In this document: piece after piece, positions 17,436 to 41,188 of the stretch
How positions within the stretch are numbered: the first letter of the stretch is position 1
Layout: each line of letters opens with the position of its first letter
Assembly: GCA_017547245.1 (NCBI GenBank)
Contig: JAFYQD010000003.1
Coordinates: forward strand, 283,994-347,993
DNA from: Oscillospiraceae bacterium
Lineage (GTDB): Bacteria; Bacillota; Clostridia; Oscillospirales; Ruminococcaceae
DNA: 64,000 bases
Direction: 5' to 3'
The notes under the pieces: generated by a model
Seen by the model: the letters and a program-made list of their open reading frames with translations, nothing else
Told to the model about the DNA's origin: nothing
The model's database searches: none
Translations under genes and position numbers: made by a program

Positions 17436-18518
17436 ATGGCTCCTTCAAAGAAAAAAGCCCCGGAATTTCCGGAAGGAGAACACCCCCAGCGTCGGTTCTT
17501 GTTCAAAAAGAAGCGCGCCGGCGTGGAACTTAGCCGCGAGCAGGTTTCGGCCATAAAAGCCGGGCGCAAAAAACTCCGCAAAGAGATGCGCGCCCGTGGC
17601 CTGAAAAGCAAACGGGATTTTGAAGCCACAGCGGCCAGCCTTGGCCTGTATTTTGACAAAGCCCGCGGTTTGTGGGCATGGCTGTGGCGGCATGGTCTTG
17701 GGCTTCTGCTTGGCGCATTCCTGCTGATGCTGCTGGTGCTGTTTATCCTTTCGTTGGTTCAGTATATGCGCGGCCGCTTCACGGTTCATCTTTCGGACGA
17801 AATGTTCAAAGAAGGCTTTACCCTAAGCGAAACGGCCGACTTTGCAAACCCAACCACCGTGCTGTTTGCCGTTCCGGCAGAAGACGTTCCCTGTATTTCG
17901 GTTGCACAGATTGGCCCCGAGGTTGATATGATAGACGGCGAACATAACGAAAATTATTTCGCCTATACCTTTTATATCCGCAACGAGGGCGAAAACACCG
18001 TTGATTATAAATGGGAACTTTCAATCAACCAGGAAACGCAAAATCTTTCTTCGGCAACGTGGGTTGCGCTTTATGAAGATGGCAACCTTATCCTGTATGC
18101 CGAAGAGAACAAAGAAACCGGTGACATTGAAGCTCTTCCGCCTTTTTATGACGACACCCGCGGCTATATGGCTGTGCCCCTTTTGGAGCAGGACAACCCC
18201 GACCAGCTGGAAGTTGTGGCAACCCAGGGAAGATTTACCTACTACCGCATTTTGCCCGAAGCCTTTGCATCTGAGAATGTTGTAACCCGACGGGAGATGC
18301 AGGAGGTTGACCCCATGGAGGCACACAAGTACACCGTGGTAATGTGGATAGAGGGCGACGACCCCGACTGCACCGACGACCTGATTGACGGCACCATGGG
18401 TGTTCAGATGGACTTCCGCCTGACCCACGAAGAACAGGAGGAAGAAGAAGGACACGGCTTTGGCGTACGCTGGAAGAAATTCTGGGACCGAGTAAGAGAC
18501 AACATGGATTTTGTTTAA
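17436..18518 (+). CDS. Membrane-anchored TasA-like surface protein with WxEGxDxDC motif
   Basis: This 360-aa protein starts with a basic cytosolic segment of about 80 residues, followed by one membrane helix at about 83-110 and an extracellular beta-rich domain. Near its end it has VVMWIEGDDPDCTDD, the same signature as IWLEGQDVDC in the protein at 23611 and IWLEGQDADC in the one at 28885. This places it in the same family as the SipW-processed subunits, although it lacks a SYAWF-type signal and probably stays anchored. It may act as a base or membrane anchor for the surface structure. The ribosome site is AAGGAGGCGATAAG before the ATG. The C-terminal tail is Glu-rich and then basic. Confidence 0.65.
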   Translation: MAPSKKKAPEFPEGEHPQRRFLFKKKRAGVELSREQVSAIKAGRKKLRKEMRARGLKSKRDFEATAASLGLYFDKARGLWAWLWRHGLGLLLGAFLLMLLVLFILSLVQYMRGRFTVHLSDEMFKEGFTLSETADFANPTTVLFAVPAEDVPCISVAQIGPEVDMIDGEHNENYFAYTFYIRNEGENTVDYKWELSINQETQNLSSATWVALYEDGNLILYAEENKETGDIEALPPFYDDTRGYMAVPLLEQDNPDQLEVVATQGRFTYYRILPEAFASENVVTRREMQEVDPMEAHKYTVVMWIEGDDPDCTDDLIDGTMGVQMDFRLTHEEQEEEEGHGFGVRWKKFWDRVRDNMDFV

Positions 18519-18678
18519 CCCACGGGATAAACAAACAGGCAAGACCCCTAAAACAATCTTTGGCGAAAGATAATAACGCGATGTAATGCCCCAACATATA
18601 TATAGCAAGTCCCCAGCAAAACCCCGTTTAAACAAAGCACAAACCAAGCACATTCCATTAAAAAGGAGAGAAACACAA

Positions 18679-20976
18679 ATGGACGCACAAGTTAAAAAAG
18701 TCCAGATGCCTATGGGCATTCGGAAAAAGATGATGGCTGCCATCAGCATGCTGCTGGTTGCCTCCATCATGCTGGTCAGCTCGTCCTACGCCTGGTTCAC
18801 CCTGTCTACCGCACCCGAAATCACCGGTATTACCACCAGTGTAGGTGCCAACGGCAACCTGGAAGTAGCCCTGCTGCCTGCTGATGGCAACGTAGAAAAG
18901 ATCACCTCTTCCACCGGTGACTCTATGGCCGTGCAGACTGCTGACAAGGCCAACGTTACCTGGGGTAACCTGGTTGACCTGAGCGACTCGGCTTTCTATG
19001 GTATGGATAAGATTACCCTTTATCCCTCTGCCCTGAATGCCTTCTCCGGCTCTGTAGGCACCAATCCCCTCAGCATTCCCGAATATGGCGCAGACGGCCG
19101 TGTAGCCGAACTGGTAACCACCACCGCCACCGCCGGCTATAATGCTGAAAAAGACAGCTTTACTGTCGATGACACCTCCCCCATTTATGGCGTACGTGCT
19201 GTTGGTACTTCTTCCAACATCTCGGCCCGTCAGCTGACCTTTAAGTCTGCCAAGGGTACCTACAACGCCAAGATTTCCGGTCTGGCCACTCCCACCAAAA
19301 ACGGCATCAACAAGAACATTACTGAATTCCTGACCCTGGCTATGGCCGGCGGCGCTCCCTCTGAATTTAGTTATAAGCAGATGCAGGCTCTGGTGAATAT
19401 GGGCAATGGCATCCAGACTTCGCTGAAGAACGCAGTTAATGCCTATGCCAATGCAGGCATCGCCATTGCTGCCGCAAAGGATGCCGCCACCGTAAGCGAT
19501 GACGCTATTGCCATGCTGAGCGCTGCTATTTCCGGCGAAACCAGCGCTGCCAACCTGAAGACCACCCTGAACACTGTCGGTGTTCACGACTTTGACAGTG
19601 TACTGGGTGACCTGGCCGATGAACAGGATAGTGTTGATGATGCTCTTTCTGAAGCTGCAGCTCTGATGGCAGGCAAGGGCGAAGGTAATACCTTTGACAC
19701 GGATGTTGTACAGGAGAAGATTGCCAAACCCCTGATGGGTACTTCTGGCGACATTAAGGCCTACAATGCCGCAGGCAATCAGGATGGTGTAGAACTTTCC
19801 AAGATTGACACCTTTAAGACCATCCATCTGGGCGGCGGCGGCATTGGCGCTGTTGCCAAGTATGCAGGTGTCTTTAAGATCACCACTCAGCTGGAAAAGG
19901 ATCTGTACGGCGGTGCCAAGGGTACCACCAGTGCATTTACTGCTGTAACCGAACAGGTTAATGGCCTGACTGCCCCCGGCGGCGAAGGCGAAACCAACCT
20001 GACCGACTTCTACGGCTACATCATCGACTTTGCATTCCGCACCAACGCTGCCGACTCTTATCTGCAGCTGCAGTCCGATGCTGCTAACCGTGTTTACAGC
20101 GACGCCACCGGCGAAAACCTGGCCACCATGGGCAGCGGCAGCACCGGCGTCTTTACCTACACTGAAAACAGCGGTGTTACCGCCGAAATGGGCAAAAAGC
20201 TGATGGAAGCCATGCGTGTTGCCTTCTTTGACACCGACACCGGCGTTCTGCTGAAGGTTGCCAAGTTTGCCGACCCCGTTGCCGACAGCACTTCCGCCAC
20301 CGGCAAGCTGACCCTGTTTGATCAGACTGTTACTAATCTAGTAAAGGTATTGCTGGGCAAGGATGCCTATGAAGCCACCGCAACCACCACCTATGCTCTG
20401 GTCGACACCACCAAGTACACCAAGGATAATTGTACCAACTATCCTGTTGACGGTGAAGGCAATCTGAGAGCTCTGACCGAAACAGAATATAAGAATCTGG
20501 AAAAAGCCAAGACCGAATCCGTTGCTACCGGTGACAGCTGGACCCACACCCTGGGCAAGGATGCCTTTAAGGGCACCACTGCTCATGCCATCAAGCAGAG
20601 CATTACCATTGGCGGCAACACCTTTGACATTGTTGAGGACGGCTGCTGGAATTATGCAGCAACCGTTACCCCCGCAGAATACGCCCTGCTGGCCGAAACT
20701 TCTTCCAACAAGACCGAGTACACCGCTACTCTGAACCCTGCTGCCGATGCCAAGCTCACCTCCCTTGTTCAGAACACTGCCAAGAAGATCTCTGTTCTGG
20801 TTTACATGGATGGCGCCACCATTGACAACTCTGCCGTTGGCAATGCCCTCAGCTCCGGTACTCTGGATCTGAACCTGCAGTTCTCCAGCAGTGCAACTCT
20901 GGTTCCCATGCAGAACAACACTTTGAAGAACATGGAAAAGACCGCAGCCGCCGCAGCAGCTGTTGAAGAACCCTAA
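18679..20976 (+). CDS. TasA-like structural protein with SipW-type signal peptide (paralogue 1)
   Basis: The 765-aa product begins with a SipW-type signal peptide: a long hydrophobic segment followed by SSYAWFTLSTAPEITG, the pattern cleaved by SipW-family peptidases. The start at 18679 follows AAAAAGGAGAG; the open frame upstream to 18586 has no ribosome site. Shared landmarks with the proteins at 21234 and 35480 are WGNLVDLSD, YGVRAVGT, DFAFRTNAADSYLQL, and near the end VYMDGATIDNS with LNLQFSSSATLVPM. These mark a conserved two-part subunit. The middle region is Ala/Asp-rich and predicted helical. It is likely a major polymerising subunit of a surface fibre, inferred from family and context. 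The 160 bp upstream hold only a short hairpin (ATCTTT/AAAGAT). Confidence 0.82.
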   Translation: MDAQVKKVQMPMGIRKKMMAAISMLLVASIMLVSSSYAWFTLSTAPEITGITTSVGANGNLEVALLPADGNVEKITSSTGDSMAVQTADKANVTWGNLVDLSDSAFYGMDKITLYPSALNAFSGSVGTNPLSIPEYGADGRVAELVTTTATAGYNAEKDSFTVDDTSPIYGVRAVGTSSNISARQLTFKSAKGTYNAKISGLATPTKNGINKNITEFLTLAMAGGAPSEFSYKQMQALVNMGNGIQTSLKNAVNAYANAGIAIAAAKDAATVSDDAIAMLSAAISGETSAANLKTTLNTVGVHDFDSVLGDLADEQDSVDDALSEAAALMAGKGEGNTFDTDVVQEKIAKPLMGTSGDIKAYNAAGNQDGVELSKIDTFKTIHLGGGGIGAVAKYAGVFKITTQLEKDLYGGAKGTTSAFTAVTEQVNGLTAPGGEGETNLTDFYGYIIDFAFRTNAADSYLQLQSDAANRVYSDATGENLATMGSGSTGVFTYTENSGVTAEMGKKLMEAMRVAFFDTDTGVLLKVAKFADPVADSTSATGKLTLFDQTVTNLVKVLLGKDAYEATATTTYALVDTTKYTKDNCTNYPVDGEGNLRALTETEYKNLEKAKTESVATGDSWTHTLGKDAFKGTTAHAIKQSITIGGNTFDIVEDGCWNYAATVTPAEYALLAETSSNKTEYTATLNPAADAKLTSLVQNTAKKISVLVYMDGATIDNSAVGNALSSGTLDLNLQFSSSATLVPMQNNTLKNMEKTAAAAAAVEEP

Positions 20977-21029
20977 CCTCCAAAACAAACCCGTTAGTAC
21001 ATAACGTGTTTCAGCAAAACAAGCCCAAT

Positions 21030-21055
21030 ATACCCCGGCCTTTGGGCCGGGGTAT
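21030..21055 (+). terminator. Hairpin after the first TasA-like subunit (attenuator or partial terminator)
   Basis: ATACCCCGGCC (21030-21040) and GGCCGGGGTAT (21045-21055) form a perfect 11-bp stem with a TTTG loop. The following sequence is GCGGGCAGTTTTGG, a poor T run, so termination may be only partial. Confidence 0.6.
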
Positions 21056-21081
21056 GCGGGCAGTTTTGGACAGGCTGACAC

Positions 21082-21233: not shown

Positions 21234-23579
21234 ATGAAAAACAAAACCGAAAAGGCTGTTAGCTTGTCTGCATTACGCAAAAAGCTATACTCTGCCGTGG
21301 CAATGCTGCTGGTGGCCAGCATCATGATGGTAAGCTCGTCTTACGCATGGCTGGTTCTTTCCACCGCGCCCGAAATTACGGGCATCAGCACCCAGATTGG
21401 TGCCAACGGCAGCTTGGAAATTGCCCTGTTGAACACCGAAAGCTACAACGACATCACTAAGATTGTCAATGCGGACATTGACGAAAGTGATGCCAACTTT
21501 GGAACAGTGCCTGCGCTTTCTACCTCCAACCTTTCTTGGGGCAACCTTGTAAGTTTGGGCGACAGCAGCTATGGCCTGAACAAAATTACCCTTAATCCCG
21601 GCCGTCTCAATATTTCGACCGCCAACGAAGACGGTGATATGTTCCAGATTGGCCAAAACCTGATTAAGGCCCCCATCTACAACGCCGACGGCCGTATTAT
21701 TGGCCTGAACGTGGATGATGTTATTTCGGCCACCTACAGCACAGACAGCGAAGGCTTCTCTGTTGCCAACCAGCTGGACTATGGTGTACGTGCCGTGGGC
21801 ACCACCGCTTCGATGACTGCTGCCCAGCAGGGTATCAACGCTGCACGTTCGGCCCTTACTGCCAACAAAAACGAAGCAACCAAAATTGCCCGCAGCACCC
21901 TGAAAACCAACGGTAATGCTTTGGGCAACGTTGCAATGGGCATTGCCACCAAGGGCGAAGACGCTACCTTTAGCATTGACGATGTAAAGGCTTTGCAGTC
22001 GTTGGCACAGGGTCTGGGCCGTTCGCTGGGTTACCTTGATGCAGCCGTGCGCCAGCTTTATGTGGCCTATCTGCACAGCGAACTGGTTGCCTTTGCAGAT
22101 GACACAGAGAAAAATGCAGCCATTGATGTGGTGGTTGACCCCAACACCGCTCTGGCTGATATTCAGGCTGCCTATCCCCTCGTGGCCCTGCCCGCAGTGC
22201 GTGATGGCGAAACTGCCGAAGACATCATCGCCCTGTTGGAAAAAGACGAAGGCATTGTGGCTGCTGCCATCGCCGATTGTAAGGATCTGATTGAAGAGGC
22301 AAAGGCTGCCTATGAGTTGAATGAGGTTATTGCGGTTATGAGGCCTTTGGTTGACCACACCAAGATGTCCTTGAACGGCACCCCCATCGACCAGTTAAGC
22401 TCCAATATAGAAGCTCTGCTGAACTCGGTAATTGGCGGCGGCGGTGTAAATATAACGGTTCCCAGCGGCAGCGGCATTCTTTCCGACATTGCTGACTACG
22501 CAGACAACTATGACGCCGAAATTCTTATGGAAGACGTCACCTATAACAACATGGGACCAATGGACCTTAAGGCCCGCATGACAACCGTAACCTCGGTAAA
22601 GCCTGTTTACCTGCAGGCATGTGCCAACACCTTGAACAGCTATAACGCCGGCAGCGGCGACGCCAGCCAGGCTGTCATTGCCGACTTCTACGGATATGCA
22701 CTTGACCTTGCTTTCCGCACCAACGTGTCTGATTCTGAACTGCAGCTGCAGACTGCCCCCAGACAAAGAATCTATGACACCGGCGAAGCTTCCACACTTA
22801 CCCAGGGCGGCGGTAGCTATATGCAGTTCCGCTCCAGCGCAAACATTTCGGCAAGCAAGATGCTCAAGCTGATGAGCGCACTGCGTGTGGTATTTGTTGA
22901 CAAGGATCAGATGGTTCTTTCCATTGCCGCCCTTGACACCAAGCCCGGTCAGGATGCCTATATCCTGCTGGAAGATGATGACACCAAAAAGACAGAAGGC
23001 AAACATGCCAAGCTTAATGTAGCCGATGTACAGAACTCCGACTACATTACTCTGGATGAATACAACGAACTGCCCGAAACCTCTGAAGTGGAAATCAGTG
23101 CAGACGGCACCATCAAGGCTCCGCTGTACCTCCACTCCTTTGCCATGACGGTAAGCACCAAGAACAGCACTGCCGAAGAAACCAAGTATACCGGCGGCAT
23201 TACCCTTGGTGAAAAGCTTGACAGCAGCGCTATCACCGCTTTGGAAGAAAGCGTAGCCAAGCAGATTACAGCCATTGTTTATCTGGACGGCTCCTTTGTA
23301 GACAACTCGATGGTAGCCGCAAACGGCAGCCAGTCCATGACCGGCACCCTGAACCTGCAGTTCTCCAGCAGTGTAGAACTGATACCCATGGAAAACCAGG
23401 GCCTTAGAGATATGAAGGCAGAAGATGAGGGAGACGAAACCGAGCCTCCCGCCGATGACGAAGAAGGCGGCGAAGATCTTGGCGGCGGTGCAGACGACGG
23501 CGATGGAGAAGACCCCGCTCCCGATGAGAATGGTGATGACACTCCCACCGATGACCCCGAACAGACCGAAGGGACTTGA
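21234..23579 (+). CDS. TasA-like structural protein with SipW-type signal peptide (paralogue 2)
   Basis: This 781-aa protein is a paralogue of the one at 18679. Its N-terminus carries the same SipW-type signal (SSYAWLVLSTAPEITGIS), and the landmarks WGNLVSLGD, YGVRAVGT, DLAFRTNVSDSELQL, VYLDGSFVDNS and LNLQFSSSVELIPM occur in the same order. It differs by a strongly acidic Asp/Glu/Gly/Pro tail of about 55 residues at the C-terminus, which may bind cations or the cell wall. The ribosome site GGAGG lies seven to ten bases before the ATG. It is separated from the upstream paralogue by 257 bp containing two structured elements, so expression of the two subunits may be set separately. Confidence 0.82.
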   Translation: MKNKTEKAVSLSALRKKLYSAVAMLLVASIMMVSSSYAWLVLSTAPEITGISTQIGANGSLEIALLNTESYNDITKIVNADIDESDANFGTVPALSTSNLSWGNLVSLGDSSYGLNKITLNPGRLNISTANEDGDMFQIGQNLIKAPIYNADGRIIGLNVDDVISATYSTDSEGFSVANQLDYGVRAVGTTASMTAAQQGINAARSALTANKNEATKIARSTLKTNGNALGNVAMGIATKGEDATFSIDDVKALQSLAQGLGRSLGYLDAAVRQLYVAYLHSELVAFADDTEKNAAIDVVVDPNTALADIQAAYPLVALPAVRDGETAEDIIALLEKDEGIVAAAIADCKDLIEEAKAAYELNEVIAVMRPLVDHTKMSLNGTPIDQLSSNIEALLNSVIGGGGVNITVPSGSGILSDIADYADNYDAEILMEDVTYNNMGPMDLKARMTTVTSVKPVYLQACANTLNSYNAGSGDASQAVIADFYGYALDLAFRTNVSDSELQLQTAPRQRIYDTGEASTLTQGGGSYMQFRSSANISASKMLKLMSALRVVFVDKDQMVLSIAALDTKPGQDAYILLEDDDTKKTEGKHAKLNVADVQNSDYITLDEYNELPETSEVEISADGTIKAPLYLHSFAMTVSTKNSTAEETKYTGGITLGEKLDSSAITALEESVAKQITAIVYLDGSFVDNSMVAANGSQSMTGTLNLQFSSSVELIPMENQGLRDMKAEDEGDETEPPADDEEGGEDLGGGADDGDGEDPAPDENGDDTPTDDPEQTEGT

Positions 23580-23610: not shown

Positions 23611-24630
23611 TTGAAACAACTAACAGCTGAACAGAAACGACGGCGAAGAACGATCCTGTACCTATACGTTCTGCTGGCGCTGCTGATTTTGCTGGTAACA
23701 GCCAGCTATACCTGGTTTGCCCTAACCCAGACCCCTCGTGTCAGTGACATGGCGGTACACGTAAACACCACCTCAGGCATTGAGCTGGCAACCACCTACA
23801 ACGCCCCGGATGAAGAGTGGGGCCAGAACATCGACTTTTTGGATCTTGTAAGTGAGACCGAACCATTAAAGCCGGTTACCTGGTCAGAGCAGAACAAAGC
23901 CTTTTACACCATCATCTACGGGTGGGATGGCCGTATGGCCGGCAAGTGGCAGGAGCTTTCGGATGCAGAAAACTCTAACCGCACAGACGGTGATGGCTAC
24001 TATGTTGTAGGTACGGTTTATGCCCGCAGCGGCGAACCCTGCGAGGTTTCGCTGATGGATGCTGTGGAACTGAACAGCGGCGAAGACGGCGCCGGAACCT
24101 TTGTAATCGGTACACCCGTATGGAACAGCGAAAGCATCCTGCACGACAATGGCGGCAGCGGCGCTGAAACTGCCATACGCATAGGTTTTAAGATTACCGC
24201 AGTGGACGGCGAAACAGGACAGGCGTTGGGCCAGTCGGACTTCTTTATTTATGAACCCAACTGTGATATGCACATTGACGGATCTGTGGGATATGTGGAT
24301 ACCCCCAGCATTGACGGCACCGAAACACTTGGCAGCCGTATGATACTGCAGACCGCTTCGGAATGGAGCGAAGCTTATCCCGTGGAACGCAATGTTACCA
24401 TTAAGTCTTTGGGCGAATTTATGACAGACACCATGCTTTTTGAACTTGATGTCGACAAGGTTGTGCGCATCGATTTTTATATCTGGCTGGAAGGTCAGGA
24501 CGTCGACTGCACCAACATGATTGATGAAGCTCAGATTTTTGCAAATGTACAATTCTATGCTGATTATAGCGGACAATCCGGATTGGTTGATATTCCGGGC
24601 CGCGCTAATCATAGAGACAGAAGGCACTAA
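23611..24630 (+). CDS. TasA-like protein with SipW-type signal and WLEGxDxDC motif
   Basis: The 339-aa protein starts at a TTG codon, chosen because AAAGGAGG (23595-23602) lies eight bases upstream. A basic N-terminus (KRRRR) and a hydrophobic helix end in TASYTWFALTQTP, a SipW-type cleavage region. The mature part is beta-rich and ends with FYIWLEGQDVDCTNMIDEA, matching the C-terminal signature of the proteins at 17436 and 28885. It lies directly before the first SipW gene, with a 21-bp gap, so it is a likely substrate. It is shorter than the paralogues at 18679 and 21234 and could be a minor or adaptor subunit. Confidence 0.78.
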   Translation: MKQLTAEQKRRRRTILYLYVLLALLILLVTASYTWFALTQTPRVSDMAVHVNTTSGIELATTYNAPDEEWGQNIDFLDLVSETEPLKPVTWSEQNKAFYTIIYGWDGRMAGKWQELSDAENSNRTDGDGYYVVGTVYARSGEPCEVSLMDAVELNSGEDGAGTFVIGTPVWNSESILHDNGGSGAETAIRIGFKITAVDGETGQALGQSDFFIYEPNCDMHIDGSVGYVDTPSIDGTETLGSRMILQTASEWSEAYPVERNVTIKSLGEFMTDTMLFELDVDKVVRIDFYIWLEGQDVDCTNMIDEAQIFANVQFYADYSGQSGLVDIPGRANHRDRRH

Positions 24631-24651: not shown

Positions 24652-25596
24652 ATGAAGAATAAAAATGCAGCTCAGGAAATCGCGGTGAACAACACAGACG
24701 ATATGATGCCGCAGGAAAGCCGCGGCAAAAAGATCGCCAATACAGTGATTAACGTGATTCTGGTTATTTCTATTATCCTTGCGGCAGTGTGTACCTACGT
24801 TTCCTTTGTAAGTACCTCCGGCAACGGCGTACCCAGTGTTTTGGGTGCAAGAGTATTCTCTATTCAGACCGAATCTATGTACCCCACTTTGGAACCCGGT
24901 GATCTGATTCTTGATAAGGGGATCAAGGATACCGCAGATTTAGAAGTAGGCGACATTATCACCTACTGGACCGTAATCAACGGCGAACGTGTTCTGAATA
25001 CCCATAGAATCGTTGAAATTTATGATGGCGGTGGCCACCTGATTTTCGAGACTCAGGGTGATAACAATACCGTATCTGACCCTCTTACCGTTCATGAATC
25101 GGAAGTGGTTGGTCAGTACACCGGCAAGAAGATCGATGGCCTGGGCAAGGTGTTTGACTACCTGCAGACCAGCACCGGCTTCCTGATTGTAGTTGTTATT
25201 CCCGTAGCCATTTTCTTCCTCTACCATCTGGTACAGTTCTTCCGCGTATTGTTTGAATACAACAACGTAAAGAACAAGCTTCTGTACGAAATTGAACGCG
25301 GCAAGGCTGAAGAAGTTGTGGCCGAAGACAAGAAAAAGAAGGACGAAACCCGCAAGAAAGAACGGGAACGTCTGGAAAAAGAACTGCGTGACAAGCTGAA
25401 GGCTGAATTGCTGGCTGCCAAGGCCGAAGAAGCCGCAGCTCCCGTAGAAGAAACCGAGCCCGAAGTGCCCGAAAAGACCGCAGAAGAAATTGCTGCCGAG
25501 GCACGTGCTGCTCTGGAAGCTGAAATTCGTGCACAGGTTCGTGCCGAAATGGAAGCAGAAGCAAAGGCAAAAGCGGAGGCAGACGCCAACGCATAA
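24652..25596 (+). CDS. sipW: SipW-family signal peptidase I with long charged C-terminal tail
   Basis: This 314-aa membrane protease removes signal peptides from the SYAWF-type precursors around it. It has an N-terminal membrane helix at about 29-52, the catalytic serine at residue 75 in QTESMYPTLEPGD, and histidine 118 in LNTHRIVEI where bacterial-type enzymes have lysine. That Ser-His arrangement is the ER/SipW type (S26B). A second helix lies at about 185-205. Unlike typical SipW proteins of about 190 residues, it continues with a tail of about 100 residues rich in Lys, Glu and Ala, probably a cytosolic coiled coil. The AAA+ ATPase gene starts 18 bp downstream, so the tail may contact that machinery; this is inference. 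Confidence 0.9.
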   Translation: MKNKNAAQEIAVNNTDDMMPQESRGKKIANTVINVILVISIILAAVCTYVSFVSTSGNGVPSVLGARVFSIQTESMYPTLEPGDLILDKGIKDTADLEVGDIITYWTVINGERVLNTHRIVEIYDGGGHLIFETQGDNNTVSDPLTVHESEVVGQYTGKKIDGLGKVFDYLQTSTGFLIVVVIPVAIFFLYHLVQFFRVLFEYNNVKNKLLYEIERGKAEEVVAEDKKKKDETRKKERERLEKELRDKLKAELLAAKAEEAAAPVEETEPEVPEKTAEEIAAEARAALEAEIRAQVRAEMEAEAKAKAEADANA

Positions 25597-25613: not shown

Positions 25614-27191
25614 ATGGATAACTTTTTCAAGTATTTTTATCAGGATATTGGACGGGTATTTCGTGCCTTGATGGACATTGTCAGCTCCTTCTTTAATTTC
25701 ATGAACTACCTGTTCAACTTCCCCATGCGTATGCAGATCATACAGGAATATGATGACAGCTTTACCACCGGCGAATGGATTATGCTGGTAATCACCGAAA
25801 TTGTGGTGATTGTTCTTTGTGTTGTTATCATTTACTTTATTCTCAAGCTGCTTCGCAAGGTGTTCCGCTTCCGTGTTTCGGTCAAAAAGCATGACGAACT
25901 GGTAAAGCAGTATAAATCTTTGCAGAAGGATCTGATTCGTGCCAACTATGAAAAAGACCGTCTGCTGCAGATGCGCGTTGCCGAAATTGGTGTGCCTGCC
26001 GATGAATTGGAAGCTGCACTGAATGGGGAAGGCGGAGAGAAGAAGGAAGAAGAGTTTGTTCCAGATTCCAATCGAAACACCATGCAGTCGCCCTGCCTCG
26101 ATCCTTCCGAAAGCCGTTTCTTCCGTTTGACCAGCGTGGATAATTTCTACAAAACCGAATATCAGGCTCCTGCCTACAACAACGACATTACTCTGCCCGA
26201 GTTCTGTGAAAAATTCAGACTGTTTTCGGCATCCCGCCTGCGTCTGTATTACGATCTGGACATGATGCGTTACTTTGTGGCCTCGATGGGTACCGCAAGA
26301 ATCATCATTCTGCAGGGTATTTCGGGTACCGGTAAAACTTCGCTGCCCTACGCTTTCGGCAAGTTTGTTCAGTTGGACACCACCGTGGTTTCGGTACAGC
26401 CTTCCTGGCGTGAACGTACCGAGCTGTACGGCTATTACAACGAATTTACCAAGAAGTATACCGAAACCGACTTCCTGCGTGCCATTTACGAGGGTAACTT
26501 CTACCGCGATCCTCACATCGTCATCCTGGACGAAATGAACATCGCCCGTGTAGAATATTACTTCGCCGAAATGCTGTCCATTCTGGAACTTCCCCGAAAG
26601 GACGAGCAGAAGGTTGACGTTGTAACCGCTGTTTGGGATAACGACCCTGTTCTGATCGAAGGCGGCACCATTCCCATTCCCGATAACGTCTGGTTTGTCG
26701 GCACCATCAACAACGACGACTCGACCTTTGCCGTAGCCGATAAGGTGTACGACCGTGCTATTCCCATCGACCTTGACAGCCGAGCAGATGCCTTTGAATG
26801 TGAAGATACCGAACCGGTGTTTGTTTCGACCGACCGTCTGAACGAGCTGTTTGATGAGGCAAAGGCCACCTATAAAGTTTCGGCCGAAAATATGGCAAAG
26901 TTGGAACTGCTCAACAGGTTCCTGATTGCAAACTTCCATTTGGCTTTCGGTAACCGTATTATGAAGCAGATTGGCGATTTTGTGCCTTGTTTTATGGGGT
27001 GCGGTGGCACCGAGCTGCACGCCATCGACTTCATCGTGGCCAAAAAGGTTCTGCGTAAGTTTGAATCGCTGTCCCTCGGCTTTATGAAGGACGAACTGAC
27101 CCAGTTTAATGACTATCTGGACGAATTGTTTGGCCGTGACAGCATGCCTATCTGTAAGGGTTATGTAGAATACCTGAAAAAGAATAACTAA
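25614..27191 (+). CDS. Membrane-anchored McrB-like AAA+ ATPase
   Basis: The 525-aa protein has one membrane helix near residues 53-80 and a basic region, then a soluble part with an AAA+ domain of the McrB/AAA_5 class. Walker A is QGISGTGKTS at about 233-242. VQPSWRERTELYGYYN and Walker B with its partner motif, VILDEMNIARVEYYFAEML (about 303-320), are hallmark McrB-type sequences. Sensor 1 is VGTINNDDSTFAVADKVYDR near 361. McrB proteins normally drive a nuclease (McrC) in modification-dependent restriction. Here there is no methyl-DNA-binding N-terminal domain, and a membrane anchor takes its place. The neighbours are signal peptidases and pilin-like subunits. An assembly or export role is therefore more likely than restriction, but this is inferred. 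Confidence 0.82.
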   Translation: MDNFFKYFYQDIGRVFRALMDIVSSFFNFMNYLFNFPMRMQIIQEYDDSFTTGEWIMLVITEIVVIVLCVVIIYFILKLLRKVFRFRVSVKKHDELVKQYKSLQKDLIRANYEKDRLLQMRVAEIGVPADELEAALNGEGGEKKEEEFVPDSNRNTMQSPCLDPSESRFFRLTSVDNFYKTEYQAPAYNNDITLPEFCEKFRLFSASRLRLYYDLDMMRYFVASMGTARIIILQGISGTGKTSLPYAFGKFVQLDTTVVSVQPSWRERTELYGYYNEFTKKYTETDFLRAIYEGNFYRDPHIVILDEMNIARVEYYFAEMLSILELPRKDEQKVDVVTAVWDNDPVLIEGGTIPIPDNVWFVGTINNDDSTFAVADKVYDRAIPIDLDSRADAFECEDTEPVFVSTDRLNELFDEAKATYKVSAENMAKLELLNRFLIANFHLAFGNRIMKQIGDFVPCFMGCGGTELHAIDFIVAKKVLRKFESLSLGFMKDELTQFNDYLDELFGRDSMPICKGYVEYLKKNN

Positions 27192-27225
27192 TTAAAACAT
27201 ATCAACGAGGAAGGAGGTGCTGAAG

Positions 27226-28881: not shown

Positions 28882-28884
28882 GCA

Positions 28885-33211: not shown

Positions 33212-33865
33212 ATGAGAACAGAAAAAACATATCCGAAATATTGGCTGTTTCTTCTGTTGGCGGCAGCAACAGCGGTACTTGTGCTGGTTTTGTTTACAGG
33301 ACCGGTACGGGCGCATTATGAAGCCGCATACAGCGGCGATGTTACCCTGCATTATAACGGCAACGACAATCAGATCTATCTGCTTAGTGCCGAAAGGAAT
33401 GAGGACGGAGACCTGATTACCAGTGGAAGCGGATATGTTTCCGATGAAATCAACTGGGTGGCCCCGCAAGACGAACAGGGGATAATCATTCCTGACACTT
33501 ATTCCATAAACTTTTTGTTGGCAAACACCAACAACGCCCGAATATTGGCTGCCCAACAGCAGACCGCAAAATTGGCTTTGGTTGCCACGGTCGGCATTGC
33601 TGACCCCGAGGCTTTGGTGGTTGTTCTGGATAGCGGAGGAACCTCCTATACCGGCATACCCGCCGAAATAAAGGAAGGCAGCAGCTGGTATAACGAATTT
33701 GGTCAGGGCTGGGTTTACCGCTTTTACAACGCAGCCGGCGAAGAGCTTTCCTGGATTTTGCGAGGCGGTGTTTTTGCCTATCACGAAATGAATCTGACCG
33801 TTGTTGGTTCCAGCCAGGCGGCCGCCGCACTAACCCTGATTGCCACAGCAGAAACATCCGACTGA
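33212..33865 (+). CDS. Small secreted or anchored protein of unknown function
   Basis: The 217-aa protein has an N-terminal hydrophobic segment (about 10-34) ending in GPVRA, either a signal peptide or an anchor. The rest is predicted beta-rich and neutral. It has no SYAWF motif, no WLEG signature and no family I recognise. The ribosome site is AGCAGGAG before ATG. It lies 22 bp after the beta-helix protein and 43 bp before the next gene, so it belongs to the same transcription unit and may be a minor subunit. Confidence 0.65.
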   Translation: MRTEKTYPKYWLFLLLAAATAVLVLVLFTGPVRAHYEAAYSGDVTLHYNGNDNQIYLLSAERNEDGDLITSGSGYVSDEINWVAPQDEQGIIIPDTYSINFLLANTNNARILAAQQQTAKLALVATVGIADPEALVVVLDSGGTSYTGIPAEIKEGSSWYNEFGQGWVYRFYNAAGEELSWILRGGVFAYHEMNLTVVGSSQAAAALTLIATAETSD

Positions 33866-33908: not shown

Positions 33909-35465
33909 ATGATGAAAAAAACTTGTCTTAAAACGCTTGGTCAAATTGGATTGGCCGGGCTGATGGCGGTTACTTCGGTATTGGCTATTCCTACATCCGG
34001 CAGCGCCCATGTGGTGCGTAAAGATAGTTGGACCATGCAGCTTCCTCCTGCGGTTGCTCCGCTCAGCAGCGAACTGCTGACCGAGGAAGGGCAGAATGTA
34101 CGAATCAGCAATACAAGTAATTCTTACCGTATTGAGATTCCGATTAAGAACCAGCAGAAAGAAAACTGGTACATGACGGTGTATAACCGGTCCCCCGAGT
34201 ATATGAACGCCAGTCTTACTACCGACGATTTCTTCTGGAACAAAGAAACCTCCTATATCTACTATTACCATAATAAAAACAGCGTGGTGGTAGATGGGGA
34301 AGAGGATGACGGTACACAAATCATTTATCTCAACCTAAGCAAAGTGGGATGGGAGCCCTCTACCGAAACTCCCGACAATACCAACCAGCCCACCCAAGGT
34401 GACGAACAGACCGGTGCTGCAACCGATCCCGTTCAGGGTGACGCCGGAACCGAAACACTTTCCCTCTATCAAGCCGAAGAGGGAAGCGGAACGGAAGAAG
34501 GCGGTTCTTCCGAAAACGGTGCCGAAGGTGAAAATGGTTCAACCTCTGAGGGCGGCTCCGAATCGGAAGGGGACACCACAACCGATGGCGGAACTTCTTC
34601 CGGAACAACAGGTTCTGGTTCTACTACGCCCAGTTCTGTATATATCAAGGTGACCCTGACCTATGGTATGGATATGACCGATTACGGTGAATTCGAGGAA
34701 GGAACGGGTAAAACAATTTCGGCAACATTCTATGTTCCGCTTAAGAAAAGCGAACAGGAAGAAATGACCGGCACCTTGAAAAACTGTCCCAGTCAGTACA
34801 ATCCCGAAGCAGCCATTCCTTTGCTGACCGGGGATAAAGGCTGTGAAGTCAAACTGAATCAAGCAGAGAATAAGGAATTTCCAGCAATGACCCGATATAC
34901 CATCGGCAATGGCCGACCCTGGATTCTTTATGATGGCGGAACCATTCGGGTGCCCGGAAAAACAGCCTTTGCGGTGGATCTTTCTCTGACAGAACTCAAC
35001 CCCAATCATATCCATCAACAGGAGGATGAGTTTGAAGAGGATGGCAATATAACACTCTTGGAAAATTCTCAGACAGCTGAGGAAGAAAAACCAAAGCTGG
35101 AACTCAAGGCAGGCAGCAATACTCATAACCTTGAGTATGTGGAAGTGCCCACAGCCAACGCTGCCGGAACTCCCTTTGTTATGACCGATGAATATGTTGT
35201 CCTTCAGTTGCCCTATCGGTGGGGCAATGCCCTTCCCACTGCTGAAGTGGAACAACTGAAGCTGCAGGACGGCAAGCTTGAATGGGTTTCGGTCAATGAA
35301 TTGTTTAAGATTGAATCTATTGCAGTAAGCAACGAAATAAAAGTATCAAAGATTGGCGAGGCTGATGCCGGAACCTATCGAATTACGTTTTCCTGGACCC
35401 AAAACGGATTGGTACTTTATAGCCTGGAAACCGCTTTCTATCTGCGAAGCGGTAAGAAAGGTTAA
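33909..35465 (+). CDS. Secreted protein with acidic Ser/Gly-rich linker, unknown function
   Basis: This 518-aa protein has a Sec signal peptide ending near TSGSA. A first beta-rich domain reaches about residue 155, a linker of about 85 residues rich in Glu, Gly, Ser and Thr follows, and a second beta-rich domain covers about 245-510. No known catalytic motif was recognised. The ribosome site AAAGGAGG precedes tandem ATG codons at 33909 and 33912. It stands directly before the 1902-aa subunit with a 14-bp gap, suggesting a related role in the surface structure. Confidence 0.65.
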   Translation: MMKKTCLKTLGQIGLAGLMAVTSVLAIPTSGSAHVVRKDSWTMQLPPAVAPLSSELLTEEGQNVRISNTSNSYRIEIPIKNQQKENWYMTVYNRSPEYMNASLTTDDFFWNKETSYIYYYHNKNSVVVDGEEDDGTQIIYLNLSKVGWEPSTETPDNTNQPTQGDEQTGAATDPVQGDAGTETLSLYQAEEGSGTEEGGSSENGAEGENGSTSEGGSESEGDTTTDGGTSSGTTGSGSTTPSSVYIKVTLTYGMDMTDYGEFEEGTGKTISATFYVPLKKSEQEEMTGTLKNCPSQYNPEAAIPLLTGDKGCEVKLNQAENKEFPAMTRYTIGNGRPWILYDGGTIRVPGKTAFAVDLSLTELNPNHIHQQEDEFEEDGNITLLENSQTAEEEKPKLELKAGSNTHNLEYVEVPTANAAGTPFVMTDEYVVLQLPYRWGNALPTAEVEQLKLQDGKLEWVSVNELFKIESIAVSNEIKVSKIGEADAGTYRITFSWTQNGLVLYSLETAFYLRSGKKG

Positions 35466-35479: not shown

Positions 35480-38400
35480 ATGCAAAAACATACCAGAAAA
35501 CGAATTGCATATTATCAGGAGGCTCTTCCGGGACTGAAGTCTAAGATTGCCGGCGCAGGATTGATGCTGGCGATTGCTGTCATCATCTCGGTAATGACCA
35601 CCTATGCATGGGTAACTCTTTCTATTGCTCCTGTAGTCAGCAGCGTCAATACCACCGTAAGCTCCAATGGTACGTTGGAAATTGCGCTGGCACCCAATGA
35701 TGGCGCGTTGCCTCAGGAATTTGATGTGGATGAATCTGGGATTGCCAGCACTGATGTTACGGTTTCTAACCTGCAGTGGGGCAACCTGATTAATCTGTCA
35801 GATGCTTCTTATGGTCTTGATAAGCTGGTTCTGCGCCCTGCTGAGCTTAGCAACAAACTGGATACAAAGCCCCTGAAGGGTGCTGTATACGGCTCGGATG
35901 GACGTATTGAAACAACAAGCGATAATTTTGCGTATGCAAAATGGGATGCAGGCAAATCGGCTTTTATTACGCCTGCAGCCGGCACCAATGACTATGGTGT
36001 GCGTGCCATCGGTACCTATAAAATGGTTGTTACCGGTGAAGAACAGCTGGAAAGACAGCAAAGAGCCAGTGTTGTTGAAAACGCACACAACAGAGTAAAT
36101 ACTGCCTATAGTAAGGTTCCCGGTGGTTTGTCCAACATCAATAGCCTGCTGACCACCTATGTTGAAGGTATGGTAGGCGACGAAAAGGTGTTCTCGGCTA
36201 CCCAGATTGAATCGGCCGCTAAATTGTACGGTATTTTGCTGGAAGCCATGGAGCGTCATTTGGTGGCACAGGTTGAGCATGCAAATTTCCAGAATTATGT
36301 GGCCGGTAAGGGCGATGTTGTTCTGACCGCACAGGATCTGGAAAATAACCCCAGACTTTATGACGCAGCAACCGCAGACGGTACTTCTGCAGTAAAGTTG
36401 ACCGGTCTGACCACTTTTATATCTGACCTTAAAACAACCAGACAGGATGAGCAGCTGCTGAAAGATTATGCTGCTGCAATAAGACGCAAAGAAATAGATG
36501 TAACTTGGAGCAAGATATACGAAAAGGGTACCACTACCGCTGCCGCCGGTTATCCAAGAAAGCTTGCTACAATTGTGGCAGCCATGCTGGACTATAACAC
36601 CATGCTGGTTACCCTTGAAGATGGAAAAACCACGGTAAGTTTCCAGGAACTGGAAAACAACACCTCGGGGCACCTGCAGGACCTTTTGGGTGTAAATGAC
36701 AAGGGCTATACCGATATAATCATTCAAAACGGCATTATGAAACGTTTTGAAGAGTTTGCCGTTGATGATTCGTACCGTCTGCAGGGTGACAAACCTTCGG
36801 ACGAAAGATATCATGCCGTTGTTCATCTGAAAGGTAAAGTAACATATATCGTGTCAGTTGACCTGAATATCAAGGGCTATGCCTATACCACAGCTTCGGG
36901 TGATTGTTACTTTACTCAGGACTTTACTGTTTCCAAGGGCGCTGAACAGGTTCCCACCAACTCGGCACTGGAAGATACCTATGGCATGGCCGTAGACTTC
37001 TGGCTGCGTACCAATGCGGAAGAAACCTATCTGACTCTGGAAGGTGCTACAACAGCCAATGAAAAAGGCGACATTATCAGCTATGATGGTGTAAACCGTG
37101 TATGGGGTTCCACCGGTGAGTCGCTGACAACCACCAACAGCACCACACAGGGCAGCGGTTCCTGCTATATTTACTATGTTGATACACCCGAAGACTATGC
37201 ACGTTCGCTTGACCTGCTGCGCAGCCTTAAGGTTGCCTTTGTAGGTGAAGATGGCCAGCGTTTGGGCATTGCTTCGATGGATACCAACAACGATTATCCG
37301 GTTAACGGTCGTGTTACCGTTCCCATGGTTCTTGATGATTGCGAGACCACTTATACCTATACCGATGATCTTGGTGAAGAAGTAACCGCTCTGGCCATAT
37401 CCCAGATGAACTATGATCAGGCAACCCGTATTACTGCCATTGTTTACCTGGACGGCGTAAACCTTTCCAACACCAATGTTTTGTCGGCTTCGGACATTGA
37501 AGGCCAGCTGAATATTCAGTTTGGTTCTTCCGAAGATCTTTCTACCCTTGGCGACAGCAAGCTGGAAGCCGAGGAACGTTATGTAACTGTAAAGTCGATA
37601 ACCCCCAATGTTATGGACTTTAAGGACAGCGACAGAACCGCCACCATTACCGTAGAGGTAAAGGGCGATGAACCTCAGAACATGAGTGCGTTCTTCCTGC
37701 GTGCCATCAATGCTACCCAGGGCGAACGTCAGGATCCCATGACATTCTATAACCAGGGCGAAGGCATTTGGGTTGCCCAGTATGAATTTACGGCTCCCGG
37801 TACCTACTATCTCCGTCACATTCGCATGGATGGCGTAGACTACGCTGTTAATGTACAAGAGGGAGATGAAGCCCCCAAGGTTGTAGTAGAAGGCTTTGAT
37901 ATTGCCGATATCGAATCGGAATCCTTTGGCCTTAATAAGGAAATAACGGTATATTCCCCCGATAACTTCTTTGAAGAAGACATTGCGGTAACCTTTGGCA
38001 GCACTTCGGCAGATGATATGCCCACAGCCCTTACCGCTCGTTATGAACGTGAGGATGGCAATACCGTTTCGGTACAGATGACTGCCGATAACAGAGGTGT
38101 ATGGCACGGAACCGGCATTTTCCAGACTTCCGGCAGTTATACACTGAAGAATCTGTACATGAAGGTTGGCAATAAGAACATCAGCGTTGCGGTTCCCGAA
38201 GAATATATGTACAAACTGAATCTGTTCATCGGTTTGCGCGTAGAAGTATTCAATGAGGGCGGCGCTGAAACAGAAGAATATGATAAGAACGTTGATGTAT
38301 ATCCCAGAGATGTAAGTGTTAAGATTTTGGATAACGCAAGCAACGAACTGGGCGAATTGCAGAATGCTGTACTTAAGTTCTCCCGCAACGGTTCCAGAGC

Positions 38401-41188
38401 TGATACGGTAGATACCAACTTGGTTTGGAATGTTTCGGAAGGCGTTTACAAGGGCAGCCTTGCAATTACATCTCCCGGCAGCTACAGCTTCCTGAGTGTT
38501 TCCTTTGAGGGCGCAGAAGGCTCGTTGACCAAGGCTGCAGGAGCACCGCCTACTTATGTAATTCTTAACCCCGATCCCCCCAGCTATGTATATTCCACTG
38601 CGGCAAACCCTGTTCAGTATGAATTGCTGCTTTCCAAGAACGATGATGTCACTTCTGCTGAAATTGGCCCCATCGTGATTGAAAACGCTGGTATTGGTAA
38701 AACGGTAAAGCTGCACAACAGCATTTCGGGTGATGACTACACCATTACCAACAGTGCTGCAGCTACCAATATATACGAAAAGGGCGACAACCAGTGGTAT
38801 GTTTCGATACCCAAGTATCCTGTAACCGAGGGTAATACAACCACCTACTCTATGGAAGGTGTTTGGTCGGTTGTTGAAATTACCCAGTGGGATTGCTACA
38901 ACCAAGACGGTCAATACTGTGACATAGAGAACCCGATTGTATGGTCTGCTACTGATCGTGCCTACAACTTCGGCGGTTTGGATACCGATGTGCGTTGTGC
39001 TGTAAATGTAGAAATGGTTGATCCCGGCGATACCACGCTTGGCAGTGCCGATGCCGAATTTATGGCCGACAATTATGTCAAGGATATCGGTATGCAGGTT
39101 CAGATTACCGACCGTGCTGGCGACAACATTCCTGCAAGTGCCTTCTCCGCCACCGGTGGTGTAGAAATGGCCGTAAGATATAGCGGAAATACCGATAGCA
39201 AGTATGGCTATACCGTAACCGGCGCTACCAGCCCTGATGCTGTTTCTTTTGAACAGCAGGAGAATGGCTTGTGGCAGGTGGGTGCAGACTGCACAGACAG
39301 CTGGCAGTATGTTGGTGAATATACCGTCACCGGTTTGACCATCAAAACAAAGACAAGCCGTACCGAAACCATACTGCCCGGTACAGAAAGCGGTATTCCT
39401 GCCATGTACACCGTTACCTCTGCGGCTCCCAAGGCAGAAAACCTGCTTGTTAAGGTGGTAAGCCAGAACCCAACCGTATTTGGCAAAAACACCCTTACCG
39501 GAGAAGTAACCGGGGCATTCCTGGATTTGATCAGCCCCAATGTTGTGGTGGATATGCAGCTGCAGTACACCGACAATGCCGGTAAGACCAAGGTTGCGGA
39601 TAAGGCTCAGCTTAGTGGCCTGAATGCCTATGTGGAAGCAACCTATGTTGAAAACAGCAATAGCGGCAACAAATACGCCAGCTATACCATCTCCGGTACC
39701 AGTGCGCACAAGACCCTTACTGTTGCCAATGGTACAGCGCTGACCATGAGTAACCAGACCGGCGGCAACCGTTATACCTCCGGCAGCTCTGCAATGCTGC
39801 CCGGTCAGTATAATCTTGCTCTTAATGTACAGGTAAATGGCGAAAAGTGTACCAATATTGATTACTCCAGTGTTAGCAGCAACGGACAGCTGAAGCCCAT
39901 CGAGATATACGCCAAGCTGCCGACCCTTACGGTAACCGGTACCGACCGCGCCAAGGGAGAGGAATTCGAGACAAATCTGGTTGCCCGTGACGCGAACAAC
40001 GCATGGAATCCTAACAATGGTATTTGGGCAACGGTTCAGAATTATCACGATACCTATTCGGCCAATATTTATATCGAAGCTCGTAAGATAACCGATGGTT
40101 ATCCGGGTGAGATTGTAGCCTACACACTGCCCAAGGTTGAACTTACACTGAGTGATTTTGGCAGCGGAATGTCGACAGCAACTGCTGTAATCAGCGGTAA
40201 TGCTGATGGTACAGCCTATACCAACCAGTTTGCCTTCACACCAAGCAGTCCTTCGTACAGCGCTGCAATAGGGTATCTTGGCAAGGGTTCGTTTACCTAC
40301 GAAGTCAAGGACGATTCCCTTTTAGGTGGTATTTTGGGTAGTACAGAAACCAAAACACAGGAATATGACACCAAGTACTGGATTGGGGAACAGAGCATTA
40401 GTTCTGTTCAGATAATAGCCAGCGGCGATTCTGCTGTTTTCACGCTGAATGTGACCCAACCTATCACCATTCGAGAAGTAAACGAGGCAATGCCCACCAT
40501 TACCTACGATTACGTTGATGGTTACAACACTCCTGAGGCAGTAACCAGCCCTAACGGCGGTTCCTTCATGGTAACTTTGCCTGCTTCCATCGGTACGGTC
40601 AACAAGGAATACAAAGAAACAGATGAAAATATTCCATGGACCACAAGTGATAATGTTAAGGGTGTTGCCAATTTTGTAAACTATACCAATACTTCCAACC
40701 CGGAACAAAAAAATGGATGTAATGGCATGACTTATGGTGCCCAAGCAGACTTTGTTTATCACTTGTATGAACGAACCGAAACCACAAAGACCAAGGTTTC
40801 TCCCACCAATTATTATCTGGCGGACCATGGTCTGGTGGCTTGGTTGATCAACGGTGTGGAATATGCGCCGGGTGCCGAATATGAAGTAACCGGTACGGTT
40901 ACCGCTATTCCAGTCATTGGCGTACTGGGCAGTGCAGACGATTGGACTCTTACCAAAACAGAGACTGCAACCATTAAGGAAGTATGGGTAATAGACGTCG
41001 ATTTGGGCACTCAAAGCGTAGAAAAAGTTACTACTCCCACTTCGGATTATTCAAGCCCTACTGCGGCAGATGAGGCTCTTTATACTGAAGAAAATTATAT
41101 TGACTACATCCCCAGCGGCTATGAGTTTATCGATGCTACCAATATCACCGGCGGTAAGGTATACCTCGTATCTACCCAGATTTTCTAA
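35480..41188 (+). CDS. Giant TasA-like surface protein with C-terminal Ig-like extension (1902 aa)
   Basis: The first 700 residues or so are a third paralogue of the proteins at 18679 and 21234. The SipW-type signal reads MTTYAWVTLSIAPVVSSV, and the landmarks WGNLINLSD, YGVRAIGT, DFWLRTNAEETYLTL, VYLDGVNLSN and LNIQFGSSEDLSTL follow in order. After this come about 1200 residues of repeated beta-sandwich-like segments with no recognised enzyme motif. There is no LPXTG or terminal membrane helix. The ribosome site AAGGAGGTGG lies before ATG 35480. The extension suggests a cap, tip or surface-linking version of the subunit; this is inferred. Codon use is less biased than in the gene at 1779. Confidence 0.82.
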   Translation: MQKHTRKRIAYYQEALPGLKSKIAGAGLMLAIAVIISVMTTYAWVTLSIAPVVSSVNTTVSSNGTLEIALAPNDGALPQEFDVDESGIASTDVTVSNLQWGNLINLSDASYGLDKLVLRPAELSNKLDTKPLKGAVYGSDGRIETTSDNFAYAKWDAGKSAFITPAAGTNDYGVRAIGTYKMVVTGEEQLERQQRASVVENAHNRVNTAYSKVPGGLSNINSLLTTYVEGMVGDEKVFSATQIESAAKLYGILLEAMERHLVAQVEHANFQNYVAGKGDVVLTAQDLENNPRLYDAATADGTSAVKLTGLTTFISDLKTTRQDEQLLKDYAAAIRRKEIDVTWSKIYEKGTTTAAAGYPRKLATIVAAMLDYNTMLVTLEDGKTTVSFQELENNTSGHLQDLLGVNDKGYTDIIIQNGIMKRFEEFAVDDSYRLQGDKPSDERYHAVVHLKGKVTYIVSVDLNIKGYAYTTASGDCYFTQDFTVSKGAEQVPTNSALEDTYGMAVDFWLRTNAEETYLTLEGATTANEKGDIISYDGVNRVWGSTGESLTTTNSTTQGSGSCYIYYVDTPEDYARSLDLLRSLKVAFVGEDGQRLGIASMDTNNDYPVNGRVTVPMVLDDCETTYTYTDDLGEEVTALAISQMNYDQATRITAIVYLDGVNLSNTNVLSASDIEGQLNIQFGSSEDLSTLGDSKLEAEERYVTVKSITPNVMDFKDSDRTATITVEVKGDEPQNMSAFFLRAINATQGERQDPMTFYNQGEGIWVAQYEFTAPGTYYLRHIRMDGVDYAVNVQEGDEAPKVVVEGFDIADIESESFGLNKEITVYSPDNFFEEDIAVTFGSTSADDMPTALTARYEREDGNTVSVQMTADNRGVWHGTGIFQTSGSYTLKNLYMKVGNKNISVAVPEEYMYKLNLFIGLRVEVFNEGGAETEEYDKNVDVYPRDVSVKILDNASNELGELQNAVLKFSRNGSRADTVDTNLVWNVSEGVYKGSLAITSPGSYSFLSVSFEGAEGSLTKAAGAPPTYVILNPDPPSYVYSTAANPVQYELLLSKNDDVTSAEIGPIVIENAGIGKTVKLHNSISGDDYTITNSAAATNIYEKGDNQWYVSIPKYPVTEGNTTTYSMEGVWSVVEITQWDCYNQDGQYCDIENPIVWSATDRAYNFGGLDTDVRCAVNVEMVDPGDTTLGSADAEFMADNYVKDIGMQVQITDRAGDNIPASAFSATGGVEMAVRYSGNTDSKYGYTVTGATSPDAVSFEQQENGLWQVGADCTDSWQYVGEYTVTGLTIKTKTSRTETILPGTESGIPAMYTVTSAAPKAENLLVKVVSQNPTVFGKNTLTGEVTGAFLDLISPNVVVDMQLQYTDNAGKTKVADKAQLSGLNAYVEATYVENSNSGNKYASYTISGTSAHKTLTVANGTALTMSNQTGGNRYTSGSSAMLPGQYNLALNVQVNGEKCTNIDYSSVSSNGQLKPIEIYAKLPTLTVTGTDRAKGEEFETNLVARDANNAWNPNNGIWATVQNYHDTYSANIYIEARKITDGYPGEIVAYTLPKVELTLSDFGSGMSTATAVISGNADGTAYTNQFAFTPSSPSYSAAIGYLGKGSFTYEVKDDSLLGGILGSTETKTQEYDTKYWIGEQSISSVQIIASGDSAVFTLNVTQPITIREVNEAMPTITYDYVDGYNTPEAVTSPNGGSFMVTLPASIGTVNKEYKETDENIPWTTSDNVKGVANFVNYTNTSNPEQKNGCNGMTYGAQADFVYHLYERTETTKTKVSPTNYYLADHGLVAWLINGVEYAPGAEYEVTGTVTAIPVIGVLGSADDWTLTKTETATIKEVWVIDVDLGTQSVEKVTTPTSDYSSPTAADEALYTEENYIDYIPSGYEFIDATNITGGKVYLVSTQIF

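Follow-up and report, generated by a model that had tools for sequence, protein, structure and literature searches.

The tightly packed run of plus-strand genes between positions 16082 and 43253 of the window, the 64-kb stretch of DNA from an Oscillospiraceae bacterium that was analysed here as a whole, is on balance likely to encode a system of the CoCoPALM type, in which a membrane-anchored NTPase derived from McrBC is dedicated to the biogenesis of a SipW-dependent surface polymer. This class was named in a few sentences by Bell et al. (eLife 2024; PMC11090510), which describe a McrB-like NTPase with a transmembrane segment (TM) and a putative coiled coil, a coiled-coil McrC homologue, and linked genes of the signal peptidase family. 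The same sentences give a variant of the signature motif, NxD usually followed by E or D, and an FtsB-like N-terminal TM and coiled coil fused to the GTPase (PMC11090510). An earlier note on this DNA had stated that an ATPase pair in a SipW locus was not something recognised; this does not hold, given that Bell et al. had already named such systems (PMC11090510). As in their short description, a McrB-like AAA+ domain is found in the window (AAA_5 above its cut-off), and signal peptidase family genes are linked to it both here and in 77 of the 80 best relatives, being fused in three. The window departs from that description in that the peptidase is SipW-like, a homologous surface family with SYAWF-type signals and an HD/EAL gene are present, and McrC-SipW fusions occur among the relatives.

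The run starts with a gene for a protein of the c-di-GMP type, with HD_5 and a weak EAL match by Pfam (16082-17416), which is followed by four surface protein genes. Surface protein A (17436-18518), assigned by HHalign, is membrane-anchored (TM 90-108), has no AWF motif and carries WIEGDDPDC at its C-terminus; B (18586-20976) has a SYAWF signal and is homologous by HHalign to the family of gene 23611; C (21234-23579), with a SYAWL signal, clusters with B; and D (23611-24630) has a SYTWF signal and, from its alignment, a C-terminal W-x-E-G-x-D. Next are the first SipW-like signal peptidase (24652-25596; TIGR02228), with TM 35-53 and 167-185 and a charged C-terminal tail, the membrane-anchored McrB-like AAA+ NTPase (25614-27191; Pfam and PDB profile), with TM 58-76 and a putative coiled coil, and the McrC-like partner (27217-28881; Pfam and AlphaFold2), with DUF2357 in its N-terminal half and a helical tail. 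They are followed by surface protein E (28885-30207; SYAWM signal), a homologue of D by HHalign, the second SipW-like signal peptidase (30204-30959; TIGR02228), surface protein F (30922-33189; AAWY signal), assigned by motif, clustering and HHalign and taken in the earlier note as a putative beta-helix protein, the small secreted or membrane protein G (33212-33865; TM scan and clustering), the secreted protein H (33909-35465; open reading frame and clustering), and surface protein I (35480-41188; motif, clustering and HHalign), which has 1902 residues, a YAWV signal and a single-linkage cluster shared with B. The gene for a BspA-type leucine-rich-repeat protein (41301-43253; Pfam LRR_5, 143.2 bits; C-terminal TM 575-593) is probably the end of the run, its membership being uncertain. 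Among the 81 loci compared (the best 80 relatives and the window), the cluster of protein G has members in 13 and that of protein H in three.

The packed plus-strand run with overlapping genes, as described in the earlier note, is confirmed: 28885-30207 overlaps 30204-30959, which in turn overlaps 30922-33189, with start codons taken as putative. Open reading frames open at or near all the gene positions given earlier, the McrC-like partner starting at 27217 instead of 27226. Upstream of the run, two giant secreted-looking proteins are encoded at 1779-11000 (3073 residues) and 11015-15040 (1341 residues), for which a Pfam search gave no family above cut-off; a dockerin-like GDVNGDG stretch was seen by eye near the end of the latter. 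Immediately past the locus, on the minus strand, lies a gene of the LGT (prolipoprotein diacylglyceryl transferase) family (43483-44214).

The presence of two SipW-type peptidases was also borne out. Both score above the cut-off of the NCBIfam signal peptidase I family TIGR02228 (100.4 bits for 24652-25596 and 75.8 bits for 30204-30959; cut-off 51.85) and below that of the stricter Bacillus SipW equivalog NF046067 (107.8 and 70.8 bits, respectively; cut-off 190). A strict Ser/His/Asp motif pattern is fitted in full by 78 of the 123 SipW-like open reading frames, and some of the others may be inactive. The genome of the window holds two further SipW-like matches on the same contig, about 300 kb away (G000:C7:4085-7357).

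The ATPase (25614-27191) matches AAA_5 with 24.5 bits (cut-off 22), and McrB chains were its sole matches at E ≤ 0.01 in a PDB profile search (best E 1.6e-6). Its strong TM segment at 58-76 is followed by a charged stretch, judged by eye, and then by the AAA+ domain, in which the motifs GISGTGKTS, LDEMN and NNDD were identified; the motifs of this domain are invariant across 18 aligned ATPase sequences. By the Kyte-Doolittle scale, a TM segment lies within the first 130 residues of all 79 ATPase open reading frames longer than 480 residues, with one N-terminal segment in 63 of them and two in 16. NNDD was found in 80 of 82 ATPase open reading frames, the other two having no match to the pattern, and it can be read as NxD followed by D or as NxxD; the HMMER alignment to NTAD of McrB is free of gaps. 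With AAA_5 in the ATPase, DUF2357 in the partner and McrB chains as the nearest solved structures by sequence, the designation of the two as McrBC-like is upheld.

The partner (27217-28881) matches DUF2357, the N-terminal domain of McrC, with 24.5 bits against a cut-off of 23.3, which is weak alone; DUF2357 is found at E ≤ 0.01 in 21 of 34 aligned McrC-like members, with a best E of 2.2e-14. The alignment (A2) kept 33 of 75 unfused McrC-like open reading frames together with that of the window. In the AlphaFold2 model (pLDDT 77.8, pTM 0.46) residues 345-553 are almost entirely helix and no alpha/beta domain follows DUF2357. Pfam assigned a nuclease family to none of the 34 McrC-like proteins, and literal PD-(D/E)xK-like motifs occur at chance level across 79 McrC-like open reading frames (13 frames versus a shuffle mean of 13.6). 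Given these three observations, the nuclease of McrC looks lost and the activator part kept. Tails of more than 40 residues are present in 77 of the 79 open reading frames, with a median of 70% E/K/R/Q/A/L/D, and several of the 34 members match Pfam coiled-coil families; these Pfam matches and this composition, together with the model, indicate that coiled coils are predicted features of the McrC homologue. When the McrC-like alignment was searched as a profile against the PDB, 28 sequences matched its helical part at E ≤ 1, many of them named as coiled coils and none as McrC. The structural look-up of the model returned long-helix proteins and no McrC, a result that is dominated by long helices and proves nothing. 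Likeness to E. coli McrBC is therefore seen in the McrB-type AAA+ domain and the DUF2357 activator domain, whereas the pair of the window differs from it in having no recognised nuclease, in being membrane-anchored and in being linked to SipW.

McrBC relatives are restriction systems, and the ATPase matches the PADLOC defence candidate PDC-M26A (E 2.3e-42), so a membrane-bound anti-phage system of the McrBC or CoCoNuT type, whose only tie to the surface genes would be a common operon, has to be weighed. Its patchy spread, with 30 carriers among the 295 order genomes and none among the two same-genus genomes searched, would suit such a system. However, the 34 McrC-like proteins have no Pfam nuclease and their PD-(D/E)xK-like motifs are at chance, Pfam gave no DNA-binding domain on the ATPase of the window, and the SipW linkage is fixed (77 of the best 80 relatives). 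Moreover, the 62 stretches with the ATPase pattern and the two with the McrC-like pattern that were found in viral contigs encode no relative by tblastn, and none of the 265 plasmid records and two phage records that match the ATPase covers 80% of the protein. The defence reading is set lower because no nuclease was found and the link to SipW is fixed, and we regard it as very unlikely. An assignment to McrBC type IV restriction is disfavoured, the nuclease domain of McrC being found neither by Pfam in the 34 members nor in the AlphaFold2 model.

The conservation of the locus was evaluated in the best 80 of at least 571 confirmed relatives in named genomes, picked by similarity to the ATPase of the window; the SipW, McrC and surface-family profiles were built from these same loci. 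A McrC-like gene lies directly downstream of the ATPase in 78 of the 80, and in the two others (L068 and L102) the locus ends at the ATPase or within about 170 bases of it. SipW-like genes were found in 77 loci; among the three misses, one locus starts 40 bases before the ATPase (L085), one is 6.5 kb long (L100), and one is a true miss, SipW being absent on re-checking from its 21.6 kb (L092). SipW-like genes are found on both sides in 42 loci. The next SipW-like gene after the McrC-like one is adjacent in 27 loci, follows one gene in 16 and four genes in nine, and is fused in three; 23 loci have none downstream (eight of them with less than 1 kb left) and two have no McrC-like gene. Within 8 kb, 759 of the 814 picked open reading frames of at least 150 residues are on the same strand. 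Given that it recurs in 77 to 78 of the best 80 related loci, this arrangement is not due to chance. Across many Clostridia the ATPase pair stays linked to SipW and to SYAWF-type genes, and the neighbourhood analysis that the earlier note had named as able to refute its proposal did not do so.

Across genomes, the ATPase is full-length or nearly so in five of 61 (that of the window and 60 relatives), with partial, weaker matches in seven more. With a threshold of E ≤ 1e-30, the order sample (295 genomes) gave 30 carriers, the class sample (291) gave 15 and the phylum sample (398) gave one, the genome of the window itself. The ATPase was found in neither of two genomes from the same genus. The McrC-like partner (E ≤ 1e-8) is present in 28 of the 295 order genomes, all of them among the 30 with the ATPase (Fisher p 3.5e-37, uncorrected for kinship). 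SipW is commoner, being present at E ≤ 1e-10 in 18 of the 61 genomes, which are all five carriers of the ATPase and 13 of the 56 others; its presence in these 13 relatives that have no full-length ATPase counts against a dedicated role. In eight control regions around weaker McrB-type hits, of which three are about 6 kb or shorter and five matched the ATPase profile, a search for SipW gave no match at E ≤ 1e-3.

In three of the best 80 loci (L105, L106 and L082) a single open frame, of 973, 984 and 1026 residues, respectively, covers both the McrC-like protein and SipW, with the McrC part in approximately the first 330 residues and the SipW part at approximately 760-970. By Pfam cut-offs, DUF2357 and Peptidase_S26 are found in L105, the peptidase only in L106 and DUF2357 only in L082, and profiles built in this analysis gave strong scores for both parts in all three. 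The fusions share 53-74% mutual identity and may, for this reason, derive from one event. SipW has an N-in topology, and the order of the fusion, with the McrC-like part first, is consistent with it. The fusion, to which 27 more loci with the two genes side by side can be added, is the best evidence that the McrBC-like pair would act with the peptidase.

The limits of the association were explored in eight hand-picked regions around weaker or shorter ATPase hits. SipW is present in two of them (L155 and L156) and was not found at E ≤ 1e-3 in the other six (L150, L151, L152, L153, L154 and L157). All six keep the membrane ATPase and five keep a McrC-like gene: the order is ATPase-McrC-ATPase at L150:2533-11138 and L154:3265-12603, the same at L157:1-3754, which is cut by the start of the contig, and ATPase-McrC in L152 and L153, while L151:9562-15640 has one ATPase and no McrC-like match. 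Transglut_core was found in a large nearby surface protein in all three loci tested (L150, L154 and L151; 73-83 bits, cut-off 23). In a tree of 94 rows, with several long branches and deep joins that are unsure, the rows that have no SipW form two groups, of seven rows (support 100/100) and two rows (99/91). The link to SipW is thus apparently tight in the main family and, given these six of eight regions, not universal for membrane McrBC. The same six regions would suit a pair that is simply carried along in the operon, with no role together with SipW or the surface proteins; the linkage kept in 78 (McrC-like) and 77 (SipW) of the best 80 loci and the protein fusion speak so strongly against such a bystander that we hold it to be extremely improbable.

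Six genes of the region (18586, 21234, 23611, 28885, 30922 and 35480) encode an N-terminal hydrophobic stretch followed by [YFLAVW][AGST]W[FLVYMI], in a scan that covered the genes retained by the picker of open reading frames, and so the earlier count of at least six proteins with SYAWF-type or variant signals stands. The SipW-dependent signal family TIGR04088, run on ten window proteins encoded before position 33212, gave one match, to 30922-33189, at 13.0 bits and below the cut-off of 19, and no match at E ≤ 0.1 for the other nine; the family matches of 28 proteins in the 23611 family do not include it either. HHalign relates the 23611 family (D) to that of 28885 (E) with a probability of 99.9, to that of 18586 (B) with 99.5, to the C-terminal part of 17436 with 97.7, and to 28 short relatives of the B cluster with 99.4. 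The surface profile had been seeded with 17436 and drifted to take in the 23611 and 28885 types; the alignments kept 27 of 74 upstream surface open reading frames plus that of the window (A3) and 28 of 33 short ones (A4). The shared marks are the AWF-type signal, except in 17436, and a C-terminal motif resembling W-x-E-G-x-D, which for D is invariant in 28 sequences. As judged from these profile comparisons, the surface proteins, which are the putative cargo, are one homologous family that has no Pfam name. Indeed, Pfam gave no family above cut-off for window proteins A to I and scattered matches in one or two members for the 28 short relatives (best E 0.0022), and among solved structures the 23611 family had no PDB match at E ≤ 1 and the second surface set a best E of 0.013, to an endoglucanase.

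The earlier description of the locus as TasA-like is not supported, given that the TasA/camelysin family (Peptidase_M73, PF12389) has no match at E ≤ 0.001 in this genome, which is estimated to be 56% complete, while the B. subtilis control was positive. TasA/camelysin matches were found in five of the 31 genomes searched, including one carrier (G039), in which none of them lies on the ATPase contig. In the TasA-TapA-SipW system of B. subtilis, a dedicated SipW-type peptidase adjoins its surface-protein substrates, and to our knowledge no ATPase pair belongs to this fibre system. Both systems have a SipW-type peptidase beside surface proteins, whereas the genome of the window has no TasA/camelysin match and does have the ATPase pair. 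The nearest studied clostridial SipW polymer met in the literature search is that of C. perfringens, where the filament protein BsaA depends on a SipW both to be secreted and to polymerise (PMC7395162). The sipW-bsaABCRSD operon resembles the locus of the window in combining SipW with a secreted protein, which in C. perfringens polymerises; it is governed by a two-component pair, and no ATPase is among the genes named in that report (PMC7395162). That such SipW fibre systems are not known to need a comparable ATPase also counts against the proposed role of the pair.

The protein at the head of the run (16082-17416) matches HD_5 with 58.2 bits (cut-off 27.2) and EAL with 23.4 bits, below the cut-off of 31.3. 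The HD/EAL single-linkage cluster has 44 members in the loci of 42 of the 80 best relatives; not every member is certain, and many loci are truncated on their upstream side. Of three members tested, one has HD_5 and a weak EAL (L050), one HD_5 alone (L090) and one EAL (L104). The gene of the window falls outside its own cluster, apparently because a longer antisense open reading frame was preferred by the picker, and its Pfam matches are the same as those of L050. Its catalytic motifs (HQIGK and QHMERWDGSGYP) are, in our reading, degenerate, which suggests sensing and not breakdown, and the gene suggests a possible control of the locus by c-di-GMP.

Such control would also fit a regulatory or chaperone role, in which the AAA+ pair works as a switch, MoxR-like or McrBC-like, for the maturation, insertion or gating of the peptidase/surface complex on a cue from the HD/EAL protein, and is not a motor of polymerisation. 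Besides the HD/EAL-type cluster in 42 of the best 80 loci, the McrC-SipW fusion suggests that the peptidase itself is what is controlled, and in three sister loci the ATPase has a transglutaminase surface protein as its partner, as might be expected of a maturation factor of general use. The likeness of the pair to MoxR is, nonetheless, our assumption. The solved structures closest to the ATPase in sequence are those of McrB, and the present data fit a switch and a motor alike; this role is considered unlikely.

Within a CoCoPALM-type system, the AAA domains would assemble into a ring at the cytosolic side of the membrane, and the McrC-like protein would be inserted in it as a stalk and stimulate hydrolysis as in E. 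coli McrBC, while its helical tail would grip SipW. Nucleotide hydrolysis would then gate the peptidase, or pull the membrane-held subunits and hand them over during cleavage and polymerisation, and the HD/EAL protein would couple the machine to c-di-GMP. That the NTPase performs this specific motor step is rather doubtful. Somewhat better placed, and still tentative and short of an even chance, is the reading that a stalk motor of restriction-type AAA+ and McrC parts, moved to the membrane and physically tied to a signal peptidase, drives the cleavage, extraction and polymerisation of a new family of fibre subunits, with a wider envelope role for membrane McrBC, given that a transglutaminase surface protein takes the place of SipW in some sister loci.

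If this is true, a restriction-type motor has become an envelope machine, and in many Clostridia of the gut and rumen it would supply SipW-dependent polymers with energy of their own; no such dedicated source is part of the TasA and BsaA systems as described. The few sentences that announced CoCoPALM in 2024 give neither cargo nor mechanism (PMC11090510). New with respect to those sentences are the SipW-like identity of the peptidase, a cargo that appears to be one protein family with no Pfam name, HD/EAL in many loci, the McrC-SipW fusions, and some sister loci in which SipW is missing and a transglutaminase surface protein is found. A literature search of openly available papers on SipW and on McrBC relatives gave no further description among the matches listed beyond Bell et al. 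and the preprint of that paper.

Four of the best 80 loci bear strain names and not the titles of metagenome-assembled genomes, which makes the question look testable: Anaerosporobacter faecicola KCTC 15857 (L076), Lachnospiraceae bacterium 1XD21-87 (L077), Lachnospiraceae bacterium 10-1 (L090) and Ruminococcus sp. FC2018 (L127). In a further locus, a single open reading frame of 889 residues (L131:9704-12370) combines an ATPase match with a weak McrC-like match and is possibly a fusion of another kind, between McrB and McrC.
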